A program made the translations under genes and the position numbers. This document shows, piece after piece, positions 5,854-53,112 of a DNA stretch of 64,000 nucleotides; positions within the stretch are counted from its first letter, which is position 1, and each line of letters begins with the position of its first letter. The notes under the pieces are model-generated. The model made no database searches, was not told the DNA's origin, and worked only from the letters and a program-made list of their open reading frames with translations. The stretch lies in the NCBI GenBank assembly GCA_027972325.1, contig JAPMOS010000083.1, positions 106,415-170,414 on the forward strand, read 5' to 3'. The DNA is from Paratrimastix pyriformis (lineage: Eukaryota > Preaxostyla > Paratrimastigidae).

Positions 5854-7101
5854 TCAGCGGCCCCGACATTTCATGAGGTTTGCCACTGAACCGACCCGCC
5901 AACAGTGCCTCGTCGAAGCGATCCGTGACTCCTTCACTGTGCGACCATAGTGCATTTGGTAGGTGCTGGACCTGGAGCTCCAACGATACCTGGTCAGAAT
6001 CTGTGGCAGTGGAATGCCCAGTGCAGCGGCTTTCGACGGGGCGGCTGAGCGAATTGAATGGGCACCCCACTGCAGGGGAATGCCTGCCACCGTCATCGTC
6101 GAACGCACGCAGTTCCGGATCCAGTCTGCCGAGATGGCTTTGCCCACCCTGCACTTCACTGAATTATCCCGTGGAAAGACAAAGAAGCTGTCCGACACTG
6201 CCTGACCCGCAACCGCTGGTTCCGTCGGCCGCTTGGTCAGCCACTGTTTCATGGCGCAGTGGAGGCACAGTGGGTTGTCGGGAGCCCCGACCACCTGGAC
6301 CCATCGAATCTTGGTGTTGTGTGTCTCCTTCGGGCACACCTTCAGCCGAACTGAGTGCTCGCACCCCGGCTGGCCGAACTCAAAGCGTGAGTCGGAAAAA
6401 GAGATCGAGGTTGTGTCCATGACCCTCAACCCCGCGATCTCCAACAAGCTGGCGACTTTACCAATGAGCCGATTTTGGTCAAGGGTCGCATTGTCAGCCC
6501 ATTCCCCCTCGAGCAATTGAGGTCTGCTAGGTCCCAGATCGGACCGAGGTCTTTGCCCCCAGCCGGTTTGTCCTTCCCGATGCCGGTGACGACTTGTTTC
6601 ACCAGTTTGCCTTCCGGTGATAGAGGGTGGCCACTCATGGTGAAGTACATGGACAGTGCCGAGCGACGTGCCCTGCCGAGCCCGAGCTGAGGTCCCTCTC
6701 CATGGCCTCATCCGCAATGAACGAGGCGACCTGGACCTCATTCTGGTCGGTCGCCTCCGTGATCGGAGCCAGGTCTTTGAGCGCGCACCACTCTTCATAG
6801 CGGCGAATGATGTGTGAGTATTTCTTCGAGGTTTTCTCTGCCAATGACCTCTGAATGAAATAACCTGCCGCTGCCGACAGCTCCGGATGCTTAGGGGCCC
6901 AAGCAGGAGCCTCATCTGAGAGCTTTTTCCGGGCTGTGGGTGTGGGTGTCGCGCGTCCTGGGGCAGGACCTTTCTTGCCCGGGCGGAACAGAGTTCCGTC
7001 CACGGGTGTCCCCGCGGCGTTCTGGGCATCACAGGCCCCGCTCGTGGGTGCTTCCGACCGACCCGGGGGTTTGTCACACAGGACTCCGGGTGGTGCGTCA
7101 T
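5854..7101 (-). pseudogene. DIRS tyrosine recombinase (integrase), copy A
   Basis: The product would be the tyrosine recombinase that inserts circular cDNA. The N-terminal SAM-like half (FIQRSLAEKTSKKYSHIIRR, minus, around 6800-6870) and the catalytic half are in different frames. Catalytic features in the 415-codon frame: an IAGLR arginine, HSIRSAAPSKAAALG (the HxxR box), RYRWSSRS and the nucleophile region YQMHY. One C is missing near 6673 relative to copy B (GTGCCCTGCC versus GTGCCCCTGCC), which breaks the reading frame. A second frame change at the G-run near 6510 is shared with copy B. The C-terminus ends at 5854. The conserved R, HxxR and Tyr make the family assignment firm; activity is unlikely as read. 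Confidence 0.8.
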
Positions 7102-7333
7102 GGGAGTGGGGTGGTGGTGCTCTTTGAGCGCAGAGACGCTGCCAGCTCGGCTAAGGTCATGTCCTCTCCCGAGTCTGCGTCGACGTCTACAGCTCCCTGT
7201 CCCACTGTGGGATCAGGGGCTCGTTGCTCCCCACCAGGCCTCCGGGTCGTCGAAGATCCGGGCTGGACCCATGGGGTGCAGCTGTCGGTCCTGGAACTTC
7301 TGGACGAGGGTGAGATCCGGATTGGTGAGTGTT

Positions 7334-8901
7334 CCCATGCCGCGAGTCTCCCTGGGTGATGTTCCTCCATCGACCCGTCAGAGCCTGGACTGGACCCCCA
7401 GGCCCGCCCCGACTGCCCCACGGGCTTTGTTGCCTTGTCCTGCTCTGAGTGTGAGAGTGACTGTGCGGTAGGGCTCATACAGACTGCCTCTCCGAGTGCT
7501 GGCGACGACGCCTGCGAGGGTGTGATCACCGGTGCTGATACGTCCGGTGCCGGTGGAACTGGTGCAGAAGTTGTTTCCAGTTTAGCCACGGTTGTGCCGA
7601 GTGGAACACCACAAGGACTGGCTTCCCGGACCAAAGACTGATGAGTATCGAGTATTTCAGCATTGTGCGGTGCGAGTTGGTGAGCAGCAGACCCTTCACC
7701 TTTTTCTTCTTGTTGATTGTAACGTGTCTCTTGGCAAGACAACGCCACGGAGCGAGGAAAAGGAGGGGCTGCACCCGAATTGAATGCCAATGAGCCTTCT
7801 GTGACCCCAGTTGGTTGTGGGCTCTGTGATGATAAGGCCAACGAGGTTGGTCGAAAAGCGTGCGCCAACGGAGGACCCGAGGGCAGACAAAATTCTGGGG
7901 ACAGAAAGTGGGTTTTCTTGCGCCGTCTTGACTTTTAAATGACCCAGAGGTAGTCCGTGCTGTTTGACTTGGTGTTTTTGGAGTGCCCGTGTCCACACCC
8001 AGTGTGGCAGAGGAGGCCATGGGCAGACCCGGGTTTAGTGGCTTTTTCCTGGCCTCGGTGGCCGTCGTGGCTTTGTTCTTCAAAGCCTCCAGCTCGCTGG
8101 CCTCGATGATGCAGGCCTCGGGCATCTTCGTCCCGTCCTCCAGCCGGCACAGTGGGCGCCACTCGCTCCGGCGGAGGTCGCTAAGGGTCCTCGTCGTTTC
8201 CTTGAGGGCATCCAGAGCCAGGATGCCAAGGTTTCGAGCGGCCTCGAATGAGAGCTCAGACGGCGATGATGCCGTCGAAAGGTTGGCGAGTGCCACCAGA
8301 GTCTGTAGAGGGCGCATAGCGGAGAACACCCCTGCTGTAGCCCGAGCCAGCGCACTGTCCCGTTGAGTCGCCGCCTTCCGCAGGTCTGGATCAATGAGGC
8401 GTAAGGCACTCACTGGTGGTGCAACTGCAGGATCGGCCTTGCCTTGGTCTCGAAAGTTGGGAAACGCGCGGCCGACGTGAACAACGCGAGCGAATTCCTC
8501 TTGTGTCGGTGCTTCGTGTTGAAGACGATTGAATTGCAGCCCCAGCATCTGCAAAGTCTGTGCTTCTCTTTCTGGTAAGGTTGGAGGAGTCACCACCTTT
8601 TGTCGGGGCCTCCTTCGCAAAGATGTCCGGTAACTTGGCCGTTGGTTTGAAATAGATCTGTTGGAGAGTATCGAAGTAGTATTGTCCGACTTCCTCTTGA
8701 TCTTGATCGCTTTCACCTTCTTTTTCTTCAGGATTTGTTGCACCCAACAGAGAGCTGTCACCCTCCGCTCCAGTGTCGCCTTCAGGGTCAGGAGGTTGGG
8801 TTTGGGGGCCAGGGTTGGCCGGATGTTCAGGGTCAAGGGCGGGCCCCTGTTGCTGCTGGGTCTGTTGTTGTGGTGTTGCTTGTTGATCTGCTTGATCCAT
8901 T
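7334..8901 (-). pseudogene. DIRS ORF1 (gag-like), copy A
   Basis: The likely start is ATG at 8901-8899 (MDQADQQATPQQ), followed by a Gln/Pro-rich, then acidic N-terminus, a helical central region (LQMLGLQFNRLQHEAPTQEE and a Leu/Ala-rich block ending ALDALKETTRTLSDLRR) and a Ser/Thr/Pro-rich tail. Frames change at least three times, mostly at A/T or G runs. Position immediately inside the 5' terminal repeat and ahead of RT in copy B fits DIRS ORF1. No zinc knuckle is visible, so the gag role is inferred from position. Confidence 0.55.
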
Positions 8902-8944
8902 CTTTGCCCAATAGGGATGCGTCTTGAAGCGTGCGAAACGCAAA

Positions 8945-9105
8945 GGGCAGGGTACACTATCCGTGTCAGCTGACATGGAATTTCTTTCTATTTGTGGTCA
9001 GTGCCGCTTTTTGCGTTGCCTGACGTGATGTCTATTTTCCTGGGGGTTTGGGAAGATGAAGGTCGTCGAGATTGATTACTCGTTCGCCGAGGCTCCGAGG
9101 CTGAA
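8945..9105. repeat. Left (5') inverted terminal repeat of DIRS copy A
   Basis: Inner block 8945-9055 pairs with 4706-4816. The outer 50 nt (9056-9105) is the left tip, complementary to half of the internal complementary region. Identical apart from context to 50766-50926 in copy B. Confidence 0.75.
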
Positions 9106-10666
9106 CCCTTCCAGCTTGTGGTCCTGTTCTTTACGCTGTGCTCTCATCAAATCTCTCAATTGGGTCTTCTTCTCGTGCGTCTCCTCTGGCGCCATCCCCT
9201 TCCGCAGCAAGTCTCGCCTCAGGGCCTTCATCCTCCGGGTCTCCCAGTTCCGCTCCGCCGCTGCCACCCGCCTCTTTCCAAAGGTCCGTTCACCTGCCCC
9301 CTTCAATATCCCAGACATCTCCGTAAAGGTGTACACTCGCATCCCTCTGATCACCTTGCCATCCACTCCATCCAGCTGCTCCTCCTCCACCGTAGGCAAC
9401 TTCCCAACCCCAATCGCTCTCGCCACCAACCGCCTGTATCGTTCCACCTTCTCCACCATGGCTCGGTATTTTTCTTGGGCCTCAGTTTCCTCCACAAATC
9501 TGGGTTCTTGCCCCTCATTGTCTCCGTCCTCATCTTCTGTCTCATCCTCATCCCTCTTGCCCACCCTTGCCTCGTGTGCCTTCCTCCGCACCCTGTTCCT
9601 TTCCTCCTCCCGCTCAGCCTCCACTTTCCACTGTCTCATGTCCCCGGGTGATGGGCACAGGACAACATCACGCACCTGGGTCGGGGCCCCGGTCCCTACG
9701 CGCACTCCTCTAAGGTCCGTCATCGTCATGTGGTGGTCAGTGATTTTTTCCCATAAGATGTTGGTGTTGCGCCATGCCTGCCAGTTATGCAGGTATTCCC
9801 CCGCCATCTTCGGTGTTGCCAGAGCAATGTCAAGCCGTGAGCGCTGCCACACTCCCAGTCGCATCTTCTCGTACGTCACCTCATCCTCCCTGCCCACCAT
9901 CTTGCCAACATCCACCAATCCCATCTGCTCCTGTGTTTCTGACTGTCTTGCCAAGTCATTCATGTCACCCACCACCAACACCGCCATCCCAGCTGTGCGC
10001 GCCTCATCCACCACCCGCTCCACCGTGTCCACTACCCGTTTCTTCAATGCCTTATCGTCCCCATTGGGGTAATACACTCCCACAATGCGAATCTTCCGGT
10101 TGTCTTGGCACCAATCCATCCTCATAACATACCCAGGCATCTCCTCCTCCACAGCCTTCACTCCACACAACAACTCCCTCTTGTATGCTAACAGAACCCC
10201 GGCACTTGCATGCTCTGTGGGCGCAGGCGAGCTCTCGACGATCATTCCTCGCAGCCGCTGGCTCCAAGGAGCCCCCCCATGAGGCTCCTTCGTTTCTCCC
10301 AAGACCACAACATCCGCCTGCGACACCTCCACCAGGTCCGTAACATTGGCCCGCTTAATGGCGTTGCCCAACCCTCTGACATTCCAACTGACCACCCGCA
10401 CCAACCCTTTCCCCTTGATTGGCACCCCCTTCAGCACATCTGCCCTCTTCCAGTCCTCAATCCCCTCCTGCTTGTCTGACCCGGCCAGCGCATGCCACTT
10501 CTTCCTGTCCTCCTCCAACAGCAGACGCTCCTGCTTCCTTCTCTCCCTCTTGGCCATGTCCTTCTTGCTTACACCCTTCTTCCGCTTTCCCCTCGTGTCC
10601 TGTTGTCCATTCCCTATCACTGGTGCCACCTGATATGTCCATGCTCCGGGGTCACTGCACTCAGCC
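9106..10666 (-). pseudogene. LINE-A ORF2 segment: APE-type endonuclease, copy 1
   Basis: Nicks target DNA to prime reverse transcription. AP-endonuclease-like motifs are in order: SWNVRGLGN, ETKEPHGG, YYPNGDDK, GDMNDLA, SRLDIALAT and DHHMTMTDL. The first Gln of the usual QETK box is Gly here (copy 2 keeps Gln) while the metal-binding Glu remains. A basic Lys/Arg-rich stretch (about 10510-10600) precedes the domain and connects to the USP-like domain in copy 2. Downstream, a charged linker runs into the DIRS tip at 9105, so the frame continues a few codons into foreign sequence and stops. The endonuclease itself is in one uninterrupted frame. Confidence 0.85.
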
Positions 10667-10677
10667 GCCAATGCCGC

Positions 10678-12090
10678 GTGTGTGTGTGTTGGATACTTGG
10701 AGAAACCCCAAAAGGGGTCCCCCGCCCAACACCCCCTGTATTGATCAGCTCATAACGGGGGGTGCATCCCACCGAAGTGGGGGGGTAACATGCGATAAAC
10801 CACCAACCAACATGGACGACGCACTCGTCCACTGAAGACCGGCAGCAGACGCATGGAATGGAAGGAGCGGACAGGAGAGAGAGAACACGCAGAACCCCCC
10901 GCATCCATGAAACAAAAGAACGAAAAGACATTTTAAAAAGGCCTGAACGGGGGAGGTTTACTCCCGACATACCATCGTGCGTGGGTGTAGCACACATAGA
11001 CAGTGCTCGCGCGCAACCACGAGAAGTTCTCACCGCCGGTCCATCCGGGGTTGGAAAAGGAGGACGCCCGGCACGCACCACACGGACGCCAAGATCGGCA
11101 CACGAGATTGGGGAGGCAGAGGGAAGAGGAGGAGCAGATGGACGTGAAGGAGGGTCAGAAGGGCGAAGTGGGAGGAGGTGGTGGAGGGGGCGCCAGAACA
11201 CTCGACTTGGCCGCAGCCGGCTTGGTCGGAGCGGGGGCTGCCCGCGCAAACGGCCCCTGATCGCCTTCCATCCCGCCTGGGCGAGACCCAAGGCGGACTG
11301 CAGGAGCGGCTTCCCCTGCTCAGTCTGGACCGGACCAGGGGCCGGCACCGAGGCGGCAGGGGGGGGGCGGAGAGCGAGGGCAGCGTCACCTCCGGGCAGG
11401 TGTGGAGGTCGCCTCCGTACGCGCAGCCTTCTTGGGCGAGGGCGAGGCGAACCCCTTGCATCCGCGTGCTTCGGTGAGCGTGAACGGACGCGGGAGCGGG
11501 AGTCTTGTTGCGCCTCGTCGCCGATGAATCAGATGATGAGTGAGACCGGGAATGGACACGTCCCGGTCCCCCACCACATTGATGGGTACGCGTAGGAAAA
11601 CGTTCTGGCGAAGTTGGAGGTCAGACGAGTCGTCAGTTGAGGATGCCGAAGAGTGGCGAGAATGAGATGGTGGAGCGTCGTCTCGATACTTGAGATAGCA
11701 CTGCCACATAAACGAGGACAATAGTTTCTGGATCCAGACGGCAATGCGATCCCGAGACACAGCTGGAGAACAACCCTTCTGCAGCGATTCAATGATGCCC
11801 TTCAACAAGGTACTCGAAGGAAGCGCTCCCCAAATGCCCAAAGAGTTTGCAAAATTCATCCAGCATCGAATTCTTGAAAGTAGAAATGTGGTCAAGGTCG
11901 TAGAAGACCAGATCATCTTCCTCAGCGCGATTGAAAAATTCAATAAACACTTCGCGCTTGCCACATTGTGCGTGCTCTTTTAGAAAATGAGCTTGAAAGT
12001 CACTAAGGTGATTCTCCTCGGCAATATGCATGCACGAGGGAAGAACAAGCACGCAATTTGAATGTGCTGATCGGCTAGAACCCCGGGAGG
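10678..12090 (-). mobile_element. NA2, ORF1-only non-autonomous non-LTR element
   Basis: A 1413-bp insertion in LINE-A copy 1. It is flanked by an 11-bp target duplication GCCAATGCCGC (10667-10677 and 12091-12101); LINE-A copy 2 has the empty site near 28405. On the minus strand the 3' end is a (CA)n tail (plus-strand GTGTGTGTGTGT from 10678). It carries remnants of one ORF1-like gene and no endonuclease or RT, so it must be mobilised in trans if at all. Confidence 0.75.
11386..12052 (-). pseudogene. ORF1-like protein of NA2, frameshifted
   Basis: Two overlapping frames together give an ORF1-type protein: an N-terminal helical stretch (HIAEENHLSDFQ, then REVFIEFFNRAEEDDLVFYD) and, after a frame change near 11830, GIIESLQKG and IAVWIQKLLSSFMWQCYLKY. 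The region then becomes Ser/Arg/Pro-rich. The pattern resembles the N-terminal helical domain of the NA1 and LINE-A ORF1 proteins (IxxFxFxxLxxxxFW). Downstream (10617-11348) a Pro/Arg-rich tail with a VGWWF motif may be its C-terminus in yet another frame. No function beyond an ORF1/RNP role can be argued. Confidence 0.4.
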
Positions 12091-15000
12091 GCCAATGCCG
12101 CCGCCGGTCGTGGCTTCTCCGCTTTCACCTGTTGTTGCTTCCCTCCGGCCGGTTTCCGCGTCGCCACTCTGCCGATGGACGGTCTACCCCTCACCCCTGG
12201 CTGCCCAGTCCATGCCAACACCTCACCGGGATTCCTCACGTACACCATCAACCGTGTCCTCTCGTCCGGTCCCTCCCTCCGCGTCACCCTTGCATCGTTC
12301 ATCTCTTCCCACTCCACTTCGCCGCCAACCCTCCTGCATGATACCCAATGCCTCTTCCTTGGAAGGTATGTCACCCCGGCGACTGGCCACATCCCCACAT
12401 CTCCCAGCGTGATCTTATCCCACGCCACCGGCGTACCCTCATCGCCACGCACTTCCACCAGCACTCCATCGCCCACCCGACCCCATGCATGCCTCACATC
12501 AACGGTCCCTTCCCGTTTGCACATTGGGCAAGCCCCTCGACCGTCCATGGCCATCATCTCTTGCACACTACACGTCCCACCCACCTCCTTATACACAATC
12601 ACGTCCACCTTGTCCTCACTACGCCTCCACCCGCACGCTGCACATGCACTTGTCTGCAAATCAGTCGCCCCCATGTTGAACCGTCCCAATCCATCCCTAC
12701 ACCACTGCCGCAGAAGCTCACTAGCATCTCCCCACTCAAACCTCACCCCAGGCAACATGCCAATGTTCGGAGGAGGCGCAACGACACCCTCTCTCAGCGC
12801 TCGAGTCCACTCGTTCAGGTTCTGACAGGCCCCCTCCTTACCATCCTCCACCGTGGACCAACATTGCAACGCCGAATTGACCCAGCAGCAAAGTGCATGC
12901 GGGTTCGCAATGCCCCGACTCACAACACCATCGCTTCCATCCTCTTCTTCACCATCCCCTCCTCCCGGCTGCCCACCACCCATTCTGCTCCCTCCTTCCT
13001 CTGAACCACTTGTCCTCCACAGATGTCTCTTCCGCCCTGGTGCACCTGACCGCGCCACCCTCCTCCTTCCGATCGGGTTCTCTCCGCTCCACCGACGAGC
13101 CCCCTCCTTAATTTTACCCACCAATCCTTTCCTTTCCTCACTCTCTTCAACCCCTTCCTTACAGACCTCCACCATCCACTCAAACTTCCCAGCGATCCAC
13201 TCGATCACCCAGACCATAACTTCCCATCCTTCTTCACAATCGTTTCCCCTCCTTTTTTGATTGGTGCCCCAATAGATTTGCGTATCGCTCCTTGTTCCTT
13301 TCCTCGCCTCAGGGGGCGGCAGAGAGATTCGATCGAGCACAACCCACTGTCCCATTTTCTGCCAAATAGCCTTCCCCCCAGAGATTCGCTCGCTTTGAGG
13401 GGTCTCCGGGTCTTCCCCACTTTCCCATCCTTCTCTTTCAATTTCTCCCTTCACCACCTCAGGATGATTCAGAAAATTTTCTCCTTGGGAAAATTGTATT
13501 TCGTCAAATTGTGATTTTTCTTTGGTTCCACCACTACCATTTCCATTTGTCTCCACCAATTTTTCACCAACCTGCCCAACGCTGTCCCAAGTTTTCACCC
13601 CCATCCGGCGGATAGTCTCTGCCGCCAGCGCAACATCGGGTCGTCGGGAGCATGAGCACCTCCCTGCTGGCGGCCTTATGTGCGAATTTTTTTGGGTGAG
13701 TTGGGGATCATCGGGCTCCTCCCGATCAAGGACTTCGTCCTTTTCTGCCCACTGGGCAAGATTCGGGTCTTCGGACCGATACAAAATAAGGTGGCGCTCT
13801 TCGCTTCCTTGGGGCTGGCCACCCCAAAAATCTGTTACTCCCTTATTTTCTGCTTCTCTCTTTGCCTCTTGCGGGTTGGCTGCCAGGGGATTGGGGATCA
13901 ACGGCGTCCGCTCGAGGGCTCGCCACCCGTTCAACGGCGAAAGGAATGGGGCTCGCCACCCTCCCGAGAATAGCCATTGCTGCTCCCTGTCACCACGAAC
14001 CAGTACGTCTTGATCTCGGACCCGATTCTTCGGTTTCTCAGAGTTCTCCATCTCCCCATGATTTAGGTCCGTCCCTTCTTCTCTTTTTGTTTTGTTAACT
14101 CTTCTTCCCTCCTTCAGTGCTTTATCAAGATCGATGCAACCCACTCCTTGCTTGGCCCCTATCGCTTTCTTCTTTCCGTTATTCTCCCTACGGTCTGCCT
14201 TTTTTCCCCAGCTCAATTCGTTCTGAACATCCTCCTTTTCTTCCCAGATTGTGCTGTTTCGCCGCTCTACGTGACGAAGAACAAGAACGGATTCAAATAC
14301 TCCGGCATTCTTTGAAGTCTTCAAGTTATCCTTTTCACCTAGTACCACCATCCCGGCATTCACACACTGGTCAGCCTTCCTTCTTGCTCGATCCTGAACG
14401 AACCTTTCCTCCTCCCAGCCCCAGATTTCAGAGTTCCCCTGATTTACTTGCTTCCTTCCGACAGCATCCCTCCGCCCATTCCCATTACTATCATAAAGAA
14501 CAGCCCGACTCCTTGAATCGCTCGCTTCGCTCTTGACCTCATTTCTTTCCAGATCACCTCCAAGGGCAATGGGGGTGGCGGGAAGCGCTACCCTTTTTTT
14601 AGCAGGGAGGGCTCCTCGTTCAATAATCAGTAATTTTTTAACCCCATCCTGGTTTTTCCATTTTTTGAATATAATACCCACTATGCCCGTCCGGCGGACC
14701 TGACCCATCAGAAAATGCTCAAACCGGCATTCTGACTCATTTAAGTTAGTCCCCCAGTATAATTGCACCGCCTGATGTGTTGTGTTAGTCTGGATCAGCA
14801 TCATAGCTGGGGTGATAGTCACCCGACGGGTGGTAATAGCCACTGTCCCCGTCCGGCGGACCTGACCCATCAAAGAGTGCTCCAACAAGAAATCTAACTC
14901 ACCAGAGCTAGTCCCCCGATGAAATTGCCTCGCCTGACATGCTGTGCTATTCTGGATCAGCATCATAGCTGGGGTGGTAGCCGCCCGAGCGGTAATAGCC

Positions 15001-15659
15001 ACTGTCCCCGTCCGGCGGACCTGACCCATCAAAGAGTGCTCCAACCGGAAATCTGACTCACCAAAGTTAGTCCCCCAATGAAATTGCATCGCCTGATATG
15101 CCGTGTTATTCTGGATCAGTATCATAGCTGGGGTGATAGCCACCCGACGGGCGGTAATAGCCACTGTGCCCGTCCGGCAAACCTGACCCACCAAAAATTG
15201 TTCGAACGACCAATCCAACCCCACCAAGTTATTCCCCCGACAGAAATGCATCTCCTGATATTCTTTGTTAGTCCGGATCAGCATCATGGCTGGGGGGAGA
15301 GCCGCACTACGAATGGGGATAGCCACCATAACCGTCCAGCGGACCTGACCCATCCAAAAGTTGTCAGATTCAAAAACTAACACGCCAGAGTTAGTCTCAC
15401 ATGTGCCCTGAGTCGAACGAAAGGAAAAAGGTTCATCCAAACCAGTGTTAGAGAACTCGCACGCACAGGGGAGGGGAGGGAAGAAGAGAAAATGGAGGGG
15501 TAGAAGGAGGGGGACATGCATGCTAGTTATCTCAAACAAAGGTACCGAAACCCGCGCACCCCAGGTCGCCCCGGGGTTTGCAGAGACCGGTAAATCCCGC
15601 ACATAGGCGGGGTCCCTTCTGCTGTCGGGCTGCCCTCCAAAGAAGGAGGACCCCAACAA
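12075..15659 (-). CDS. LINE-A ORF2 N-terminal part with USP-like cysteine protease domain, copy 1
   Basis: An uninterrupted 1194-codon frame ending just inside NA2. The first third translates the 161-bp tandem repeats, followed by a long Lys/Glu/Asn-rich region without a recognised domain. Residues about 910-1130 look like a ubiquitin-specific protease (peptidase family C19): Cys box ALCCWVNSALQCW (catalytic Cys codon at 12885-12887), GDASELLRQW in place of the usual QDAxEFLxxL box, CAACGW and CPMCKREG as the two zinc-binding CxxC pairs, then RHWVSCRR with the His (codon 12348-12350) and WEEMNDARV with the Asn-Asp, ending RLMVYVR. In copy 2 the same frame continues into the APE endonuclease. 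Likely role: processing or removing ubiquitin from self or host proteins, inferred only from the fold. The true start codon is unknown. Confidence 0.7.
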   Translation of the reverse strand: MLGSSFFGGQPDSRRDPAYVRDLPVSANPGATWGARVSVPLFEITSMHVPLLLPLHFLFFPPLPCACEFSNTGLDEPFSFRSTQGTCETNSGVLVFESDNFWMGQVRWTVMVAIPIRSAALPPAMMLIRTNKEYQEMHFCRGNNLVGLDWSFEQFLVGQVCRTGTVAITARRVAITPAMILIQNNTAYQAMQFHWGTNFGESDFRLEHSLMGQVRRTGTVAITARAATTPAMMLIQNSTACQARQFHRGTSSGELDFLLEHSLMGQVRRTGTVAITTRRVTITPAMMLIQTNTTHQAVQLYWGTNLNESECRFEHFLMGQVRRTGIVGIIFKKWKNQDGVKKLLIIERGALPAKKRVALPATPIALGGDLERNEVKSEASDSRSRAVLYDSNGNGRRDAVGRKQVNQGNSEIWGWEEERFVQDRARRKADQCVNAGMVVLGEKDNLKTSKNAGVFESVLVLRHVERRNSTIWEEKEDVQNELSWGKKADRRENNGKKKAIGAKQGVGCIDLDKALKEGRRVNKTKREEGTDLNHGEMENSEKPKNRVRDQDVLVRGDREQQWLFSGGWRAPFLSPLNGWRALERTPLIPNPLAANPQEAKREAENKGVTDFWGGQPQGSEERHLILYRSEDPNLAQWAEKDEVLDREEPDDPQLTQKNSHIRPPAGRCSCSRRPDVALAAETIRRMGVKTWDSVGQVGEKLVETNGNGSGGTKEKSQFDEIQFSQGENFLNHPEVVKGEIEREGWESGEDPETPQSERISGGKAIWQKMGQWVVLDRISLPPPEARKGTRSDTQIYWGTNQKRRGNDCEEGWEVMVWVIEWIAGKFEWMVEVCKEGVEESEERKGLVGKIKEGARRWSGENPIGRRRVARSGAPGRKRHLWRTSGSEEGGSRMGGGQPGGGDGEEEDGSDGVVSRGIANPHALCCWVNSALQCWSTVEDGKEGACQNLNEWTRALREGVVAPPPNIGMLPGVRFEWGDASELLRQWCRDGLGRFNMGATDLQTSACAACGWRRSEDKVDVIVYKEVGGTCSVQEMMAMDGRGACPMCKREGTVDVRHAWGRVGDGVLVEVRGDEGTPVAWDKITLGDVGMWPVAGVTYLPRKRHWVSCRRVGGEVEWEEMNDARVTRREGPDERTRLMVYVRNPGEVLAWTGQPGVRGRPSIGRVATRKPAGGKQQQVKAEKPRPAAALALPGF
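14690..15400. repeat. Tandem 161-bp repeats upstream of LINE-A ORF2
   Basis: Five units (the last partial) start at the CTGACCCATC-like motif near 14700, 14864, 15022, 15184 and 15345, giving a period of 158-163 bp. Each has CATCATAGCTGGGGTG and GTAATAGCCACTGT blocks. Minus-strand translation stays open through all units, with 53-54 residues per unit, but the array could equally be a promoter-type monomer array. Copy 2 lacks it: 31672 joins sequence equivalent to 13842 directly to that equivalent to 15419. Confidence 0.75.
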
Positions 15660-16457
15660 TAAGGCACCCCTGGCACGGGTGGGTTATAGAGGGGGGAATG
15701 AGACGGTAGGGGGCAAGCAAAGCCTCACAGAAGTCAAGTGACATGGACAAGGCAGCCAAGTGGCAGAGCAAACGAAGAAGAAGAGCAGTAAGAATAAGCA
15801 GAACAGACGAAACAGACAAAGAAGCAGGAAGGGGGGGGGGGGCTCACATCACAGGGAGGACGGGACCCAATCCCCCACCTCCCCTCGCCCCTCCAGCAGT
15901 AGACCACCGCGGTAGGCGAATACCGGGTGATCCACCAACCGAAAGGACGGCGGGGGGCGGAAGACGAGGGGGGAGCAGGCAGCGCATGCAACAGGTCAGG
16001 GGTGGGAAGGAGACCCGCCCCCCCACCAAGGGGGGCGAGCTTGGGGGGGGAAAGCAGACCACCAGTGTCAGAAACAGAGCAGACAGGAGCAACAGACCCA
16101 GGCACAGGCAACACACTCACAACAGGCACACGGGGGACAGCAGTGGGGGTTGAAGTGGGGGTGGGGGGGGTAGGAACGGCGGGTGCCAGGGTCGGAGCAA
16201 CGGACGCCGGGGGGGGAGCCGGGGGACGCACCACCACCTTGAGGGGCTTCTTGGCCTCAGCCTTGGGCACCGAGGAGGCCCGCGGTTCGGCAACACCCTT
16301 GGGAACACGCGCAGGGGTGGGCGGGGCGTCAGGGAGGCCCTTGCGGCCCTTCTTGCGGCCCTTGGTGGGCGTGGTCTCCCACTCCGTTTCGTCGTCATCC
16401 ACGGAAGCAGCATCCACATAGCTCCCTGAGGAGACGGAGAGGGTCTGCGCCTGCTGG

Positions 16458-17900
16458 CGGTCGAAGACCACCCCCGCCCGGTGGCGCACCTCGGAGGCGG
16501 TGCTTCTCCCCAAGAAGGGCAAGCCACCGGGGGAGATCAGCTCCTGGCGGCACATTGCGCTCTGCGACGTCCTGGCCAAGATCTATGGGGCAATCCTCGG
16601 CCAACGACTGACGGTGCTGCTCGGCCACCGCGGCCGCCTCGCGGCCTCGCAACATGGCTTTTGCCCAGGGCTTGGGCCCTTGCTCCACGTGTCGACCCTC
16701 CTGGCCACGCTGGAAAGCCGCAATCGGGCAAAGGCGCCGCTCAGGGTGGCGTTCATTGACCTGCGGAATGCCTTCGGCAGCGTGGAGCGGTGGGTCATCC
16801 GGAAAGGCCTCGAGCTTGCCCGCATCCCTGAACACCTGCTGGCCGTGATCATGGAGATGCATCAGGGACTCCGTATGACCTGGCGCCTCCGGCCGGACGA
16901 CGCCGAGGGCATCGCCCTGGACCGAGGCGTCCGACAAGGCGATTCGCTCTCACCAATCATATTTCTGCTGGCGGTCGACCCACTCCTTCGTTGGCTGGCG
17001 ATGGCCGACCCAGCCCTGGGGACCTCGGCGCGGGGCTGGTCGAGGATCCCACGACCGCGGCAACAACCCAGGCAGTTGCCGACGACATCGCACTCCTCGC
17101 GCCCAGCGACGCCGCCCTTGCCGTCCTCTGCCACCGGGTCGACGCCTTCCTGGCTTGGGCACGCCAGTCGACCAACACCGACAAGTGCGCCCTGCTGGCA
17201 GTCGAAGGGGGTCAGCCGCACACCAGCGCCCGGGCACTCCTCCAAGGGAAGGCCATCCCAACACTGGGCTCCGCGGGGCCAGCGGATCCTACACCTACCT
17301 GGGCTACGACATCTCCCCGAGGGCCTCGCCGCCACGCACCTGCCGCGGGTGCTGGCCAACTGGGACAAGAGGCTGGCCCTGATCCACGGCTGCGCCCTCC
17401 CCCGCTGGCAAAGGTGGAGGCCACAAAGCAATGGGCCCTTCCGACTTTGGTGTACGGCCTTACCGCCGCGTGCCCGTCGGCCGACCTGTGCGCCAAGCTC
17501 GAAGACACCCTGGCTCGCTATGCGGCGGCCTGGTTCACGGGCCGCCCCCTGGGGACCGACAAGAAGTTCCTCCCCGGCGTCCCGCGGGCCTTCCTGTTCC
17601 TGCCCGGCCAGGGCCCCGGCCTCCCGCGCATCGAAGCCACCCTGCGTCAGGCCCACCTGGGCCTGGTGGCCCGGCTCCTCAACCCCCCGCCAGGTGGCCA
17701 CTTCCTCGACCAATGGGCCCGCCCCCACGCCTTCGCCCGCGTCCTGGTGGCCGCCGCCCGCCCCTCACTCCCCAGCCCGCCGCCGCGCCGCCGCAGGTCC
17801 TGCGCCACGGAGATCGCCGTCCCTGAGGCCCTGTGGCAATGGCTGGCGCACGACCAGGCCCGGCACGCCTACAGCCTCGTCCCCAACTCCCGGCGGCCAG
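16458..17900 (+). pseudogene. Reverse transcriptase domain of LINE-C, multiply frameshifted
   Basis: Non-LTR RT motifs appear in order but in three frames: AVLLPKKGKPPG, WRHIALCDVLAKIYG, QHGFCPGLG, AFIDLRNAFGSVERW, GVRQGDSLSPIIFLLAVDP (first frame), then QAVADDIALLAPSD carrying the catalytic Asp pair (second frame), YTYLGYDIS (third frame) and a thumb region ending ARYAAAWFTG. At least three frame changes lie between 17020 and 17400. The N-terminal endonuclease is missing because the element is 5'-truncated. Family assignment is clear; the copy is dead as read. Confidence 0.8.
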
Positions 17901-18019
17901 GCTGGCTCCTCCGGAACCAGCTCGTCCGGGGGGCCCACGTCTTCCCGCAGGGGGCCGGCCACCGCGACCGCCGGAAGGAGCTCCGCCTGATGGGTCTCGC
18001 GGAGCTGCTGCCCACCTTG

Positions 18020-25850: not shown

Positions 25851-28800
25851 AATACCTCTCCCAATGTTGAATGGTTCTGTCACCCCATATGCTGTTATAA
25901 CCCGTGACTGCCTTCCCGTGTACAAGCTCCTCACATACTGCATGAACTTTTCCTCCGTCCCCATCCTTTCCAGTGCATCCATCAGTGCCCGCATGCTGAC
26001 CGTGTCATATGCCTGGCAATGTCCAACGACACCATCCAGAACTTCTTCTTTGCTCGCTTGGCCTCCGTTATGACACTGAGCACATTGCTAATGGGCGTCT
26101 CAATCCTCCTTCCGCGCAGGAACCCGAACTGCTCCGGCCCAAAGACCTTCCTGGCCTCCGTCTGCTCCTGGAACCTACGCGCAATGACGGTCTGCAATGC
26201 CTTCAACCATACTGAAATGAGTGTAATGGGTCTCCTCCCCATGGGGTCACCCGGGTGCGCCTTTCCTGGTTTGGTCAACATGTGGATGTTGCTCTGCTTT
26301 AACTCCGCAGGCACCGTGGCCGACTCCAACATGGCGTTGTACTGTTTGAGCATCCACTCCCACAACAGGGGGGGTCCCATGACCAACATCTCGGCTGTCA
26401 CCCCATCAGGTCCGCATGCCTTCCCCATTGCCAACTTCCTCACCAGCTGGGCCACTTCCTCCACGCCCTCCAAGGGCCTCATCACTGACCGAGTCTTGGC
26501 GTCCACTCCCATTTCGCCCTCCGCCTGACCACCATCCTCACCCATCCATATCTCCTCCACTGGGTGTTTTGCATCGTCTCTTCCCGTTTGGCTTCGAGGC
26601 GGTGCGAGGCTGTCCAACCTACGCAGCAAGTTCAACACATCCTCACTTTCAGCCTGTTCAGCTTCCCCCTTTTCGCTGGTCTGCCCATCCCTCGACCTCG
26701 CCTGCTCCTCCATCACCGCCCGCCATCCCTCCTTCACTTGTTGCGCATCTGAGGTCACCTCCACCACCTTCCCTCCAACATCCTTCCGGGCGAACGTTGT
26801 CACTGGGGTGTTGGGGTCACATAGAATTCCCCTGTATATGTGTCGCCTCTTCCCCTCCAGTTTGTGGTCCTGTTCCTTGCGCTGTGCCCTCGTCAGTTCC
26901 CTCAGTTGTATTTTCTTCTCGTGTGCCTCTTCTGGCGTCATCCCCTTCCGCAGCAAGTCTCGCCTGAGGGCCTTCATCCTCCGGGTCTCCCAGTTCCGCT
27001 CTGCCGCTGTCACCCGCTTTTTTCCAAAGGTCCGTTCCCCTGCTCCCTTCAAAATCTCGGACATCTCTGTGAAGGTATACACTCGCATCCCTCTGACCAC
27101 CTTGCCATGCACTTCATCCAGCTGCTCCTCCTCCACCGTCGGCAACTTCCCAACCCCAATCGCTCTTGCCACCACCCGCCTATATCGTTCCACCTTCTCC
27201 ATCATGGTTCGGTACTTCTCTTGGGCCTCAGTTTCTTCCACAAATCCGGGTTCTTGCCCCTCAGTGTCCCCCTCCTCATCTTCTGTCTCATCCTCATCCT
27301 TCGTTGCCATTCTTGCTTCGTGTGCCTTCCTCCGCACCCGGTTCCTTTCCTCCTCTCGCTCAGCCTCCACTTTCCATTGTCTCATGTCCCCGGGTGATGG
27401 GCACAGGACAACATCACGCACCTGCGTCGGAACCCCGGTCCCTACGCGCACTCCTCTAAGGTCCGTCATCGTCATGTGGTGGTCGGTAATTTTTTCCCAT
27501 AAAATATTGGTGTTGCGCCATGCCTGCCAGTTATGCAGGTATTCCCCCGCCATCTTCGGTGTTGCCAGGGCAATGTCGAGCCGTGAGCGCTGCCACACTC
27601 CCAGTCGCATCTTTTCATATGTCACCTCATCCTCCCTGCCCACCATCTTGCCCACATCCGCCAACCCCATCTGCTCCTGTGTTTCTGGCTGCCTTGCCAA
27701 GTCATTCATGTCACCCACCACCAACACCGCCATCCCAGCTGTGCGCGCCTCATCCACCACCCGCTCCACCGTGTCCACTACCCGTTTCTTCAGTGCCTTA
27801 TCGTCCCCATTGGGGTAGTATACTCCAACAATGCGAATCTTACGGTTGTCTTGGCACCAGTCCATCCTCATAACATACCCAGGCATCTCCACCTCCACGC
27901 CCTTCACTCCACACAACAGCTCCCTCTTATATGCCATCAAAACCCCCGCACTTGCGTATGTTGTGGGTGCAGGTGAACTCTTGACAATCATCCCTCGCAA
28001 CCGCTGGCTCCACGGAGCACCGCCTTGCGGCTCTTTGGTCTCTTGTAAGACCAACACATCTGCTTGCGACACCTCCACCAGGTCCGTGACATTGGCCCGC
28101 TTGATGGCGTTGCCCAATCCTCTGACATTCCAACTGACCACCCGCACCAACCCTTTCCCCTTGATCGGCACCCCCTTCATCACGTCCGCCCTCTTCCAGT
28201 CCTCAATCCCTTCCTGCTTGTCTGACCCAGCCAGCGCATACCACTTCTTCCTATCCTCCTCCAACAGCAAACGCTCCTGCTTCCTTCTCTCCCGCTTGGC
28301 CATGTCCTTCTTGCTTACACCCTTCTTCCGCTTTCCCCTTGTGTCCCCTACCCCTGGTGCTGCCGCCTGGTATGTCCATGCTCCGGGGTCACTGCACTCA
28401 GCCGCCAATGCCGCCGCCGGTCGTGGCTTCTCCGCCTTCACCTGTTGTTGCTTCCCATCGGCCGGTTTCCTCGTCGCCACTCTGCCGATTGACGGTCTGC
28501 CCCTCACTCCTGGCTGCCCAGTCCATGCCAACACCTCACCAGGATCCCTCACGTACACCATCAACCGTGCCCTTTCGTCCGGTCCCTCCCTCCGCGTCAC
28601 CCTTGCATCGTTCATCTCTTCCCACTCCACTTCGCCGCCAACCCTCCTGCATGACACCCAATGCCTCTTCCTCGGAAGGTATGTCACCCCGGCGACTGGC
28701 CACATCCCCACATCTCCCAGCGTGATCTTGTCCCATGCCACCGGCGTATCCTCATCGCCACGCACTTCCACCAGCACTCCTTCGCCCACCCGGCCCCATG

Positions 28801-29150
28801 CGTGCCTCACATCAACTGTCCCTTCCCGTTTGCACATTGGGCAGGCCCCTCGACCGTCCATGGCCATCATCTCTTGCACACTACACGTCCCTCCCACCTC
28901 CTTATACACAATCACGTCCACCTTGTCCTCACTACGCCTCCACCCACATGCCGCACATTCTCTTGTCTGTAGGTCAGTCGCCCCCATGTTGAACCGTCCC
29001 AATCCATCCCTACACCACTCAGCAGCCGCAGGAAGCTCACTGGCATCTCCCCACTCAAACCTCACCCCAGGCAACATGCCAATATTCGGAGGGGGCGCAA
29101 CGACGCCCTCTCTCAGCGCTCGAGTCCACTCGTTCAGGGTCTGACAGGCC
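25851..29150 (-). pseudogene. LINE-A ORF2: USP-like domain (C-terminal part), APE endonuclease and RT N-terminal half, copy 2
   Basis: One open frame of 1031 codons (25982-29077). Order: the second half of the USP-like domain (GDASEL, CAACGW, CPMCKREG, RHWVSCRR, EMNDARV), a basic linker (KRKKGVSKKDMAKRERRKQ), APE endonuclease (SWNVRGLGN, QETKEPQGG, GDMNDLA, SRLDIALAT, DHHMT), a spacer, then RT (GKACGPDGVTAEMLV, MLTKPGKAHPGDP, RRPITLISVWLK, FGFLRGRRIETPI, KFWMVSLDIA). A frame change follows, then GISQGDP. Directly after GDP about 80 residues including the catalytic YxDD box are deleted (near 25840), so this RT cannot function. The fusion of protease, endonuclease and RT in one frame is the key point. 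Confidence 0.8.
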
Positions 29151-30054
29151 CCTCCTTACCATCCTCCACCGTGGACCAACATTGCAACGCCGAATTGACC
29201 CAGCAGCAAAGTGCATGCGGATTCGCAATGCCCCGACTCACAACACCATCGCTTCCATCCTCTTCTTCACCATCCCCTCCTCCCGGCTGCCCACCACCCA
29301 TTCTGCTCCCTCCTTCCTCTGAACCACTTGTCCTCCACAGATGTCTCTTCCGCCCTGGTGCACCTGACCGCGCCACCCTCCTCCTCCCGATCGGGTTCTC
29401 TCCGCTCCATCGACGAGCCCCCTCCTTAATTTTACCCACCAATCCTTTCCTTTCCTCACTCTCTTCGACCCCTTCCCTACAGACCTCCACCATCCACTCA
29501 AACTTCCCAGCGATCCACTCGATCACCCAGACCATAACTTCCCATCCTTCTTCCCAATCGTTTCCCTCCTTTTTGATTGGTGCCCCAATAGATTTGCGTA
29601 TCGCTCCTTGTTCCTTTCCTCGCCTCAGGGGGGGCCAGAGAGATTCGATCGAGCACACCCCACTGTCCCATTTCCTGCCGAATAGCCTTCTCACCAGAGA
29701 TTCGCTCGCTTTGAGGGGTCTCCGGGTCTTCCCCACTTTCCCATCCTTCTCTTTCAATTTCTCCCTTCACCACCTCAGGATGATTCAGAAATTTTTATCC
29801 ATGTAAAAATTGTTTTGCGCAAGAAATTGATTTTTTCCTGGTTCCACCACTCTCAATTCCATTTGTCTCCACCAATTTTTTACCAACCTGTCCAGTGTTA
29901 TCCCAGGTTTCCACCTCGATCCGGCGGATAGTCTCTGCCGCCAGCGCAACATCGGGTCGTCGGGAGCTTGAGCACCTCCCTGCTGGCGGCCTTGTGTGCA
30001 AGGTTTCTTGGGTGGGTTGGGGGACATCGGGCTCCTCCCGATCAAGGACTTCGT
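29134..30054 (-). pseudogene. LINE-A ORF2 N-terminal region with USP Cys box, copy 2
   Basis: Carries the start of the USP-like domain (NPHALCCWVNSALQCW near 29190-29240) and the charged region before it. The frame is separated from the rest of the protease by loss of one C in a C-run near 29150 (GGCCCCTCC versus GGCCCCCTCC in copy 1). The upstream part, 29758-30054, matches copy 1 13460-13745 with small indels. It ends at the NA1 insertion. Apart from the indels the protein is nearly identical to copy 1. Confidence 0.65.
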
Positions 30055-42325: not shown

Positions 42326-43453
42326 TGTTGTTGTTGTTGTTGTGATACTATTTCGACTGCCAGTAACTGCGCGCAAAACACAGAAAACTGAAACAGAAGA
42401 AAATCCGTTCATCCGGTCGAAACCGGCGGGTAACATGCCGACCTACACCCCTCAGGGTAGGCGCAGACGGCATGGCGGGAAAGAGAGAGACTGGAATGTC
42501 GCCAGGAAACAGAATCGTTCAAACACTTGACAGCAAACAGAAGGAACATCAAAAGAAAGAACGGGGCAAGGGGGGGGACAAAGGATCCAACACTGAGACA
42601 CGGGACGAGGAACAATGAAAGGGGCGAAGGAAGCAAAAGACAAGAACAGTTAGAACGAAAATATTCCCGAACCCAGCCTGGGGGGGCGGAACCCATCCAC
42701 CATGACCTACCACCTCGGTAGGACAGGCGCACGGGCCCCTGAATCCACCACCCCACACACGTTGCTCCTTCCCAAAGGCCCACGGTTGGCAACAGGCGAG
42801 AGGTCGGAGAGGCTAATCTTCGGAGGCACGGCAGAAGCGGCATGGTCGGGCGTCGAGGTAGCACGAGCGGCGCAGCAGGCACAGCAGACAAGGGGACACA
42901 CCAGCAGCAACAGAGGCAGCAACAGGGGCAACAACAGGGGCAACAGGGGCAGCAACAACAGGGGCAGCAACAGGTGCAGGTGCAGGTGCAGGTGCAGGTG
43001 CAGGTGCAGGTGCAGGTGCAGGTGCAGGTGCAGGTGCAGGTGCAGGTGCAGGCGCAGGCGCAAAAGCCGGAGCATGAGATGAAGTCGGAGCCGGAACAGG
43101 TGCCGGCTTGGCGAATGGGTTCGCCAAGGTGAGAGGTGCTCTTGGGGCAGCGGAAGAGGCAAATGGATTGCTCGAAGAAGGGAACGGGCTCTCCTTCTTC
43201 CCCGCTGGACGATCGCCATCGATGATCGGGTGGCGAGTTCCACCTCCACCTCAAGTTGCTTTGGACCACGGTATGTAGTCTCCCCAACAGATAGGAGGAC
43301 TCGTTCTGGCGGTGTGCGGTGTTTGTCCACAGACGAGCCGCGCGATGATTCTTGTGGCACGTGGCAGTCGAAAGTTCGCACATTCGATTGCTGGAACAAT
43401 AAAGCCCCAAGTTGGAAAATAAACTGGCTGATCGCTTCAGGCTGCTTCTTCGG

Positions 43454-50721: not shown

Positions 50722-50765
50722 TCTTTGCCCAATAGGGATGCGTCTTGAAGCGTGCGAAACGCAAA

Positions 50766-50926
50766 GGGCAGGGTACACTATCCGTGTCAGCTGACATGGA
50801 ATTTCTTTCTATTTGTGGTCAGTGCCGCTTTTTGCGTTGCCTGACGTGATGTCTATTTTCCTGGGGGTTTGGGAAGATGAAGGTCGTCGAGATTGATTAC
50901 TCGTTCGCCGAGGCTCCGAGGCTGAA
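50766..50926. repeat. Left (5') terminal repeat of DIRS copy B
   Basis: Inner block and 50-nt tip are identical in layout to 8945-9105 of copy A. The element ends at GAGGCTGAA and LINE-B continues at CTCTTTGCC. Confidence 0.75.
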
Positions 50927-51906
50927 CTCTTTGCCTCCATCGTCATCATTTTCGCCAATTCCCCAAAGTCCTTCGGGTTAGCCCTTTTCATTCTATCTTG
51001 ATATTCTTCAATCTGTCGCCCCGTCTCCTCATTCCTTTCTGATCTACCTCCAGGTAACTTGATCTTTTCAATTTCAACCGATTGCCGGTATCCTCTGGCA
51101 ATTTTCCTAAAATCCACAAAAATAATGGAGTGATCCGACAATGCATTCCACTCCACCTCTTCATTCCTGAAGATCTGCATTTTAATGAACAGCTCCGTAG
51201 CTACTTCTTCACAACCCAACACCGCGTCAATTTTATTTTCATGCACCACTCCTTCTCTCACTTCCCTTCTTGTTACAGCCTCCTCAAGGCCAACCAGCGC
51301 GCTTAAATCCACGAGATCTAACCCCTTCAGCCTCTGCACTTCCTTCACCATTGCATTCCCGTCCATCCCCAACACAATGACCTCTCCCTCCTCCTTTAAT
51401 TTACCGATAATCCTTTTCCCCTCAAACTCCACCTTCCTTTTCATCTCAGCTTCACTGCTATCTACCGGATAATACATATTTACAAAGGCTACCCTTACTT
51501 TATTAAGAATCATATGCACCACCATCAAGTATCCCTCACATTCTGCCACCTTCTCCACACCCACCACAGAGTTTTGCAATTCTTTCTTCACCATGATTAC
51601 CACACCACCCTTTCCGTTTGCATTCCGAACGCATGCTCCATAAGAAACAAAACTCCGAGCAAAAAGCGACGTCTTCACAACGTGAAGCTTTGTTTCTTGG
51701 AGCATAATCACGTCCGCCCCACTATCTTCAGCTATCATTTTCACGTTTTGCCTCTTCTCGAGCATTCCTAATCCCCGGCAATTCCAAGACATTACCCGAA
51801 ATAAATTCCCCTCTTTTTCCTCCAGCCCCATCACGAGGGCCGTTTTCTCTATCTTCTCACTCTTTTCCGTCACCCCCACAATTCTCTCCGCCATCATTTC
51901 ATTCAT
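50927..51906 (-). pseudogene. LINE-B ORF2: APE-type endonuclease (C-terminally cut by DIRS B)
   Basis: An open frame of about 325 LINE codons (frame start 51906, MNEMMAERIVGVTEK). Motifs: MSWNCRGLGMLEK, VIMLQETKL, YGACVRNANGKGG, NMYYPVDSS, VLGMDGNAMV, ENKIDAVLG and SDHSIIFVDFR, the ordered AP-endonuclease-like set of LINE ORF2 proteins. In place of the usual GDxN it has MDGN. The charged linker (EYQDRMKRANPKDFGELAK) is followed by foreign DIRS sequence. It is in the same relative position as the LINE-A endonuclease. Confidence 0.85.
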
Positions 51907-52023
51907 TATTGCCTTCTTCGTATCAGCGTCTAGCCGCCGACCCCTTTTTTAGTACAAAACTCTTTGCCCTTCTTCAGTCCTTGAAGGGGCTTATTCCAAC
52001 CCTCTCATTTCTCCCTTGCTGGA

Positions 52024-53032
52024 TCATCCCCTACTAACTATGTTCTTCCTTCGCGCTTCTCCCAACCTCCTAATTTTTCGAGACCCTTCCCCAAAAGCGA
52101 CACTTGCACTCGCATTCAGGCCCACTCTTCCAAATGCCGGCCCACAAAATGATTTCTCCATTTTCGTACATGACATACCATTTTCGAATAAACAAAAATA
52201 TCCCCTTGTCCCATCTCCTCTCTTGTTGTTGGGGCACATAATGAGTCATTGAAAGTCCACCACTCCCCCCTCAATCTTCTTTTTGACAAACCCAATGTCG
52301 AGGTTTCCTTTCCTCCTACCTAAGAAGCTCATGAAGGCAACCGGAAGATACCTTTCCCCACCAATTCTTATCTCATCCGCCACAACTTCCCACGCCCCTT
52401 GACCTACATACTTATTGCGAACAACCTCAATCAAAACAAAATCCTCCGCCTCCACAATCATGCTAGATCTTTCATGACTTGTATTTTTCTCACAAATGGG
52501 ACAATTCACTTCAATCCGCTCAATCTTTTCCAATTCGTTTATCATCTCACTCATCCGATTCCCTGCCCAGGCTGCTTGAAGACACACTCTCTCTAGCACC
52601 CTAGGATGCTCCACCACAGCACCACATTCCTTACCCCCAGCTTGAGATCCCAGACAACGATCCATCCTAGCCAGGCCTACTGTCGTCCTCCTCCCCCCAG
52701 CATATATGTCCAGCATCTTTATAAGTGCTTCCCCAGCCTCGCCGTCATGGTATTCATCAAATTTACAAGCAACATCCTCAACCCAAACCTTATTCTGAGT
52801 CGACCAATCAATCCCTCCCTTTCGAATAGTATCAAAGCCTCAAACCACTATCAACTATCACTTCTGCTGCTTGAATTGCAGCAGTGATATAGCAACGATG
52901 GCCGGTGGAATTAGTTATCCCACAGTACCCAGGCTCCATGACGCCAGCCCCCCCTCTATTCTTCCCATCCTCGCTCTGACCAGCTCCGCCCCCTGCACTC
53001 CCAACACAAATCCATCCATATTCGACTGCCAC
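52024..53032 (-). pseudogene. LINE-B USP-like cysteine protease domain, frameshifted
   Basis: Pieces in three frames rebuild the USP order seen in LINE-A. Cys box: GITNSTGHRCYITAAIQAAE (near 52900), matching the family's GLxNxGNTCYMNxxLQ pattern with Cys retained. QDA-like box: DGEAGEALIKML (about 52720). Zinc pair: CPICEKNTSHE (about 52490). Strands: VLIEVVRN and LPVAFMSFLGRR. Then, one base out of frame, RHWVCQK (His, near 52300) and in a further frame EWWTFNDSLCAP (Asn-Asp, near 52255), ending IFVYSK. Length from Cys box to end is about 290 residues, close to LINE-A. Catalytic residues are present but the copy is broken by at least three small indels. Confidence 0.6.
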
Positions 53033-53112
53033 TTCACCCCTCGACTATTGACCCCAAACCGTACACACCCATTTCGCTTTTCAATCCAATTTAGCTCATC
53101 CCCCTGCTTCAT

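Follow-up and report, generated by a model that had tools for sequence, protein, structure and literature searches.

Proteases related to the one described here are already in print for other transposons. The NeSL/Utopia LINEs likewise encode an N-terminal cysteine protease of the ubiquitin/SUMO type ahead of the reverse transcriptase (RT) (PMC4640811). As far as the excerpted text of that source goes, however, their protease is Ulp1-like and an RLE lies at the C-terminus, whereas in the elements studied here the protease is USP-like with zinc-type CxxC pairs and an APE endonuclease (EN) is N-terminal to the RT (PMC4640811). Membership in NeSL/Utopia was rejected since the proteases of the sister subfamilies match the Pfam UCH family and the endonuclease is of the EEP/APE type. 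Deubiquitinase-type domains with conserved active sites also occur in Helentrons/Helitrons (OTU, VTD) and in Ginger1/Mutator (OTU, Ulp1), and VTDs have been demonstrated to cleave ubiquitin (PMC9741609, PMC2836005). Unlike the present elements, Helentrons/Helitrons, Ginger1 and Mutator are DNA transposons with other protease classes. The same protease class is joined to a mobile-element enzyme in Trichomonas vaginalis, where XP_001314237.1 combines transposase_11 with Peptidase C19. That protein, known here from a passing mention, is a DNA-transposase fusion and not a retroelement (PMC2836005).

We analyzed a window of 64,000 nucleotides, the whole stretch of DNA considered here, from Paratrimastix pyriformis. 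This organism belongs to the Preaxostyla, within the Metamonada. A first-pass annotation of the window had proposed that ORF2 of a LINE, named LINE-A, contains a domain resembling ubiquitin-specific proteases (USP, peptidase C19) fused to an APE endonuclease and an RT. In the translation of 12075-15659, the motif chain that it described on the minus strand between 12240 and 12950 is present in the order claimed, with CCWVNSALQ, GDASELL, CAAC, CPMC, HWVSCRR, EMNDARV and RLMVYVR (Table 1). In this domain of LINE-A copy 1, the putative catalytic residues are Cys 21, His 200 and Asn 217, and the four zinc-type cysteines are residues 102, 105, 140 and 143. The 5′ part of the open frame consists of a tandem repeat and a further N-terminal region of unassigned type. 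On the other side of the domain, the frame quits the LINE soon after the USP domain because ~1.4 kb is inserted there: the frame exits right past AAALA and the LINE picks up ~1.4 kb away. GCCAATGCCGC is found at 10667-10677 and at 12091-12101, and it is single and insert-free in the intact copy L009. An Rfam scan of the whole window gave no match.

Table 1 Positions of the USP-bearing LINE features in the window
Feature	Position	Strand	Remarks
USP-like (C19) domain, LINE-A copy 1	12222..12947	−	242 aa, generous cut
Putative catalytic Cys codon, copy 1	12885-12887	−	counted from residue 21
Putative catalytic His codon, copy 1	12348-12350	−	counted from residue 200
Putative catalytic Asn codon, copy 1	12297-12299	−	counted from residue 217
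Open frame with USP domain, LINE-A copy 1	12075..15683	−	translation
162-bp tandem array, 5′ region of LINE-A copy 1	14672..15361		4.3 copies
Insertion between USP and endonuclease, LINE-A copy 1	10678..12090		GCCAATGCCGC flanks both ends
Endonuclease (APE/EEP) part, LINE-A copy 1	9076..10749	−	Pfam Exo_endo_phos E 3.8e-9
Cys-box frame (GIANPHALCCWVNSALQ), LINE-A copy 2	29134..29766	−	
Remaining USP domain, endonuclease and 5′ RT in one frame, LINE-A copy 2	25982..29155	−	EEP 4.8e-11
USP-like domain, third LINE, subfamily E	52119..53044	−	B/B2/C HMM: 65.1, 25.1 and 24.8 bits
Endonuclease frame, subfamily E LINE	50809..51948	−	directly 3′ of USP domain; Exo_endo_phos E 3.9e-8

The window contains a second LINE-A copy, whose domain had been annotated as continuing in frame into the endonuclease. 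This holds from mid-domain through the His box and on into the start of the RT, but the Cys box and the remainder of the domain are in separate frames, so that copy 2 is frameshifted. Its RVT_1 match (E 1.2e-5, 25.6 bits) is under the cut-off of 29.6. Hence, neither of the two LINE-A copies of the window is intact. A third USP-LINE (subfamily E, 50809-53044), absent from the first-pass annotation, turned up by profile search. Its USP-like domain is split over frames that hold the Cys box, the middle part and a WWTFNDS box, and the middle frame by itself has no Pfam match.

Intact relatives were found elsewhere in the genome, in an assembly of 56.06 Mb and 495 contigs. The window domain used as query gave 18 genome matches, including L009 (A_C190; 88% identical) and L010 (A2_C452; 47% identical), which represents subfamily A2. 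Both loci have a stop-free frame, of 1940 and 1678 aa, respectively, in the order USP, endonuclease, RT. EEP and RVT_1 are matched at 2.9e-10 and 2.9e-32 in L009 and at 1.1e-10 and 1.3e-31 in L010, and the best PDB match of the EN-RT part of L009 is the LINE-1 ORF2 protein (3.6e-28). With an EEP/APE endonuclease and then an RT following in a single frame, the domain sits in a LINE ORF2. The proposed fusion of the USP to an APE endonuclease and RT is thus found in stop-free frames outside the window; five of ten frames checked contain USP, endonuclease and RT motif without a stop (A_C190, A2_C452, B_C471, C_C77 and C_C444). B_C471 has an RNase H besides, and B_C170 contains USP, endonuclease and part of the RT.

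When the genome was searched with Pfam UCH, 115 matches came up, some of which resemble ordinary host USPs; many lie on separate contigs, in long frames, and cover the His-box end of the model only. At 12 UCH-matching places that were read, 11 show a USP domain that falls into subfamily B, C or D, and one (L026) resembles a host gene. The start of the endonuclease follows in the same frame at nine of these 11 places, and the frame stops earlier in L022 (D) and L027 (B). The endonuclease match of subfamily D is weak (E 0.1). Two further places, 66-67% identical to B, constitute B2. Overall, the USP-related domain is a standing part of a LINE superfamily with seven subfamilies, A, A2, B, B2, C, D and E.

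Copy counts are lower bounds and refer to matches, not elements, since one frameshifted copy yields several. The USP query of subfamily C gave at least 162 matches at E ≤ 1e-3 (149 of 503 candidates scored), that of subfamily D at least 27, about half of which are distant C, and the middle part of subfamily E at least 136, mostly distant B/C. At least 149 matches were obtained with the LINE-A RT (140 of 755 candidates scored). These USP and RT match counts agree with a dispersed multi-copy LINE, many copies of which are broken or shortened. We checked three related RT loci for which no USP was listed. C71 and C333 have a frameshifted USP upstream, and no USP was seen within the 1.2 kb read at C31, the most distant RT (46%). 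The P. pyriformis assembly was built from Nanopore reads and polished (PMC10703272), so that assembly errors may account for some of the frameshifts in repeats.

We aligned representatives of subfamilies A, A2, B, B2, C and D. Of 207 ungapped columns, 23 are invariant, and the nine named USP hallmarks are all among these 23. Random drawing would give this with p ~5e-10, which is no blind test because the nine hallmarks were named after inspection of the alignment. In the Cys box, C21, L27 and Q28 are invariant across the six subfamilies. A75 is invariant in the (Q)DAxE(F/L)L box, which reads GDASELL in A, DDAEQLL in A2 and EDARELL in D; the B/C version is less canonical (GDAGDAV/GEAEEAL). Between the DA and His boxes, the zinc-type CxxC pairs are formed by the invariant residues C102, C105, C140 and C143. 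Subfamilies A, A2, B2 and C have Asn at the third catalytic position, where B and D have Asp; in USPs, this residue is likewise N or D. The Cys-His spacing is 173-194 and the His-Asx spacing 15-17. The oxyanion-hole Asn of USPs is located five residues before the Cys. Here, an Asn is found six residues upstream of the Cys in A/A2/B/B2/C and a Gly in D.

A loss of the Cys and His in most copies was not seen. The Cys is kept in 16/16, the His in 15/16, and the N/D as well as D218 in 16/16 stop-free domains, which were hand-chosen from six subfamilies, are not mutually independent and leave decayed copies outside the count. In C_C358, the His box is lost through a local frameshift. This retention is accompanied by an identity between distant subfamilies that drops to 21-29%.

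The domain is very probably related to USPs. Its assignment to the USP/C19 class in the first-pass annotation is upheld by the sister subfamilies, most clearly by D, in both Pfam UCH and the PDB, whereas LINE-A itself is without a match in either library. With the Pfam UCH model (PF00443, gathering cut-off 23.9 bits), four of ten cut-out domains score over the cut-off, namely both D domains (7.6e-9 and 7.8e-9), B_C170 (3.6e-6, 27.2 bits) and C_C444 (3.2e-5, 24.1 bits). B_C334 and both B2 domains are below it, and the three others (window A, A2 and C_C358) have no UCH match. On whole ORFs, D is over the cut-off twice, and B and C are below (22.9, 20.8, 20.1 and 17.4 bits). The UCH match is confined to the C-terminal part (model 197-254). 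In the PDB, a single D sequence matches USP15 at 3e-7, with the DA box in register, and 26 of its 28 matches are USPs. By this direct test (Pfam, PDB), the subfamily D domain is a predicted USP. A profile of ten domains, D included, reaches USP15 at 1.8e-11, and the best 60 of its 89 PDB chains at E ≤ 10 are USPs and bacterial TssM.

LINE-A is connected to this group through its relatives. The LINE-A/A2 domains alone have no Pfam UCH match at E ≤ 10, the A/A2 profile has none in the PDB, and the sole PDB match of a single LINE-A sequence is USP2 at E = 2. LINE-A would belong to the USPs on the basis of profile comparison with B/C/D, the nine shared hallmarks and the same place in the ORF. Compared with the B/C/D profile, the A/A2 profile gives a probability of 97.6 and an E of 4.5e-12 over 223 columns, with the motifs in register. 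With an HMM built from B/B2/C/D, A2 reaches 25.3 bits and the A domains 13.8 and 12.6, whereas no shuffle out of 8000 exceeds 11.4. Conversely, the A profile scores C_C101 at 18.5 bits (best shuffle 10.4), and D and C are connected by blastp at 1.3e-8. When D was left out, LINE-A scored 12.3 and 10.6 bits with the B/B2/C profile, below the 17.1 attained by a single shuffle out of 8000. The D-only profile gave A2 6.5 bits versus 13.1 for the best shuffle, and A was unlisted.

The order of the Cys, DAxELL, two CxxC, His and N/D-D boxes is the same in USP15 and USP2. The LINE domain differs from cellular USPs in its size (~235 aa), its Cys-His distance and its being part of an RT protein. Cellular USPs have a longer domain and a longer Cys-His spacing. 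The ten-domain profile also matches TssM (PDB 8ssi and 8pz3, 1.1e-5 and 1.3e-5), which we take to be a small bacterial USP-type deubiquitinase. TssM is a bacterial protein, and no link to a mobile element was seen here.

Searches for the domain in other sequences were mostly negative. A protein search with the LINE-A domain region gave nothing at E ≤ 10 among 2435 candidates, and of 7997 scored in a search with a USP-EN-RT protein of LINE-C, the two that matched were distant RT proteins lacking UCH. Phage records contained no match to the domain. A profile scan of viral contigs raised 14 stretches, none of which was confirmed. The sole profile match among 8000 candidates scored was PAPYR_11614, a "USP domain-containing protein" of P. 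pyriformis. Piece by piece, it resembles subfamily D copies in this genome, with best identities of 96% (1-135), 87% (114-217) and 99% (215-326), so that PAPYR_11614 is a mis-modelled LINE-D. No 100% match to it was found in this genome among the 123 of 360 candidates scored, and its own locus was thus not located. Annotators should take note, as at least one LINE-D fragment is labeled "USP domain-containing protein" in public databases. Salpingoeca rosetta, weighed as an alternative host, was set aside because its reported non-LTR families are limited to two partial SLACS families (PMC6875170).

Purifying selection on the USP domain is clear, with dN/dS values of 0.09-0.18 in A and B. By NG86, dN/dS is 0.09 between the window copy and A_C190 (dS 0.35), 0.11-0.17 among B and 0.16-0.18 between B and B2 (dS 1.3-1.5). 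In subfamily C, 14 of 15 pairs have NG86 values of 0.11-0.41, and YN00 gives up to 0.52 for some. Near-identical pairs are uninformative (C358-C488, 0.57 at dS 0.012; B2-B2, 0.49 at dS 0.019; D-D, 1.14 at dS 0.006), and the comparison of A with A2 is saturated. The endonuclease and RT are likewise constrained. The USP evolves faster, the identity between B and C being 0.59 for USP, 0.72 for EN and 0.89 for RT. The USP is co-inherited with the RT, and the two trees have an identical topology for six copies (A, A2, B, two C and D). Because these topologies agree, a single uptake of the USP is most likely, at a time before the A, B/C and D RTs had diverged to 52-59% identity, after which the USP would have traveled with the RT.

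On balance, we favor reading the domain as a compact, active cysteine protease of the USP class (peptidase C19) that makes up the N-terminal part of ORF2p in a superfamily of APE-type LINEs and would protect or license the LINE RNP. We infer a USP-like fold and an activity against ubiquitin (isopeptide) bonds, and intact copies are likely to be catalytically competent. Protection or licensing of the RNP as its main role is a less secure proposal, falling just short of an even chance. Because the protease is tethered to the endonuclease and RT, we propose that ubiquitin is removed in cis. The protease would strip ubiquitin from ORF2p and the LINE RNP, a step of which we are less sure, and ORF2p would thereby escape proteasomal turnover until insertion. 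Alternatively, the substrates could be chromatin or repair proteins where the target is nicked. A protective role like the first of these has been suggested for the Helitron deubiquitinases by the authors who described VTDs; in the excerpted text, the reasons why transposons carry deubiquitinases are given as suggestions only (PMC9741609).

The main rival is offense at the target, where the tethered protease, as a mobile USP1-like activity, would deubiquitinate host chromatin or repair proteins that would otherwise abort TPRT. In mammals, mono-ubiquitination of FANCD2 is needed for LINE-1 suppression (PMC10584689), repair factors are possible targets of OTU/Ulp1 in the view of the Ginger authors (PMC2836005), and tethering to the EN would put the protease at the nick. 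However, no target is known in this host, and we regard this explanation as rather unlikely. Pfam FancD2 has no match in this genome, but none in 14 control genomes either, and is therefore uninformative. Viral-style polyprotein processing, in which the protease would cut ORF2p between itself and the endonuclease and have little to do with ubiquitin, is improbable. In pattern-found copies of B, C and E, GPAFGG (GPAFGR in E) directly follows the domain, and a Lys/Arg-rich stretch then precedes the EN, but none of the A, A2 or D loci examined shows the motif and the linker is just 42% identical between A and A2. In addition, human L1 ORF2p functions uncut and USPs are isopeptidases, both of which count against such processing.

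Comparably improbable is a pseudo-enzyme or binding module, with the USP fold retained for binding ubiquitin or a partner without cleavage. The shifted or missing oxyanion-type Asn would fit this explanation, as would the decay of many transposon copies, including the His box of C_C358. Against it stands the retention of Cys and His in the chosen stop-free domains despite the low identity between subfamilies. That the domain is not a USP but a papain-fold protease of another class (Ulp1, OTU, VTD, Josephin), or an unrelated zinc domain whose motifs match by chance, is very improbable. LINE-A by itself finds no family, and there are weak matches to Josephin (18 residues, E 0.026-0.18) and to zinc ribbons; however, both D domains, B_C170 and C_C444 exceed the UCH cut-off and PDB matches are nearly all USPs. 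The Asp-x-His signature of VTDs, as given in the excerpted text (PMC9741609), is missing here, the residue two before the His being K, Q or G in the alignment.

The first-pass annotation had raised the possibility of a new retrotransposon-encoded USP. No USP in a retrotransposon was found in the top-ranked literature matches, in a search that left subscription journals mostly, and Repbase entirely, outside, and no literature pairing "Paratrimastix" and "retrotransposon" was found. USP-type proteases in transposons at large have some precedent in the Trichomonas transposase with Peptidase C19 (PMC2836005). Returning to the preferred reading of an active, RNP-protecting USP, its role can be addressed by a single Cys mutation, because the domain is fused to EN/RT, deeply conserved and present in several stop-free copies. 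Tentatively, and with somewhat less than even confidence, an ancient LINE clade of this metamonad lineage would have captured a USP once, before its RTs diverged to ~52% identity, and would have kept it active in cis, where it would be needed for retrotransposition. The presence of deubiquitinase-type domains across unrelated kinds of transposons points to ubiquitin as a widespread restraint on mobile DNA. If the single-capture scenario is true, the LINEs of P. pyriformis would encode the first USP known from a retroelement and would argue that LINEs are restricted by ubiquitin outside animals too.

Two of the USP-LINEs (APE-type LINEs with a USP-like domain before endonuclease and reverse transcriptase), LINE-A copy 1 and the subfamily E copy, both run into the words FSLGASANE, where two repeat pieces stand (7364-9110 and 49188-50931) that are 98-100% identical. 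Judging from these sequences, both LINEs seem to have been interrupted by insertion of one same element. Just upstream of the E LINE, a frame ending near 53195 resembles, by eye, an ORF1 with an RRM-like stretch. The window also carries other elements (see table), including DIRS-like pieces in which the tyrosine-recombinase-like match is weak; 45350-46287 also contains pieces of 6398-7332 at 100% identity.

Features of the window and TTAGGG-type arrays at genome loci (L0xx)
Location	Strand	Feature	Details
14672-15361		Tandem array in 5' region of LINE-A copy 1	162 bp unit, 4.3 copies
50809-53044	-	Subfamily E copy, the third USP-LINE	Frameshifted
45378-47904 and 5854-7212	-	DIRS-like pieces	Matches of RT, RNase H-like and (weak) tyrosine-recombinase-like type
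16425-17990	+	RT belonging to a different element	RVT_1 1.6e-12
21605-24205	-	RNase H	6.1e-19; weak PCIF1_WW match
40707-42347	-	Weak PCIF1_WW match	As in 21605-24205
L010 7749-8068		TTAGGG-type array
L013 54-71		TTAGGG-type array
L014 6878-6895 and 8707-8962		TTAGGG-type arrays	Contig end
L015 7880-8120		TTAGGG-type array	Contig end

Elsewhere in the genome, a LINE reverse transcriptase at G000:C31:43491-44279 (contig position) shares 46% identity with LINE-A, and no USP was found in the 1.2 kb examined upstream of it (locus L055); it possibly comes from a related LINE devoid of this domain. The public protein PAPYR_11614, named "USP domain-containing protein", joins a USP tail to endonuclease pieces and, on its sequence, is a mis-modelled LINE-D fragment. 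Finally, the telomeric arrays at L010, L013, L014 and L015 are close to LINE-A2 copies, and telomeres, or places near them, may be insertion sites of LINE-A2.
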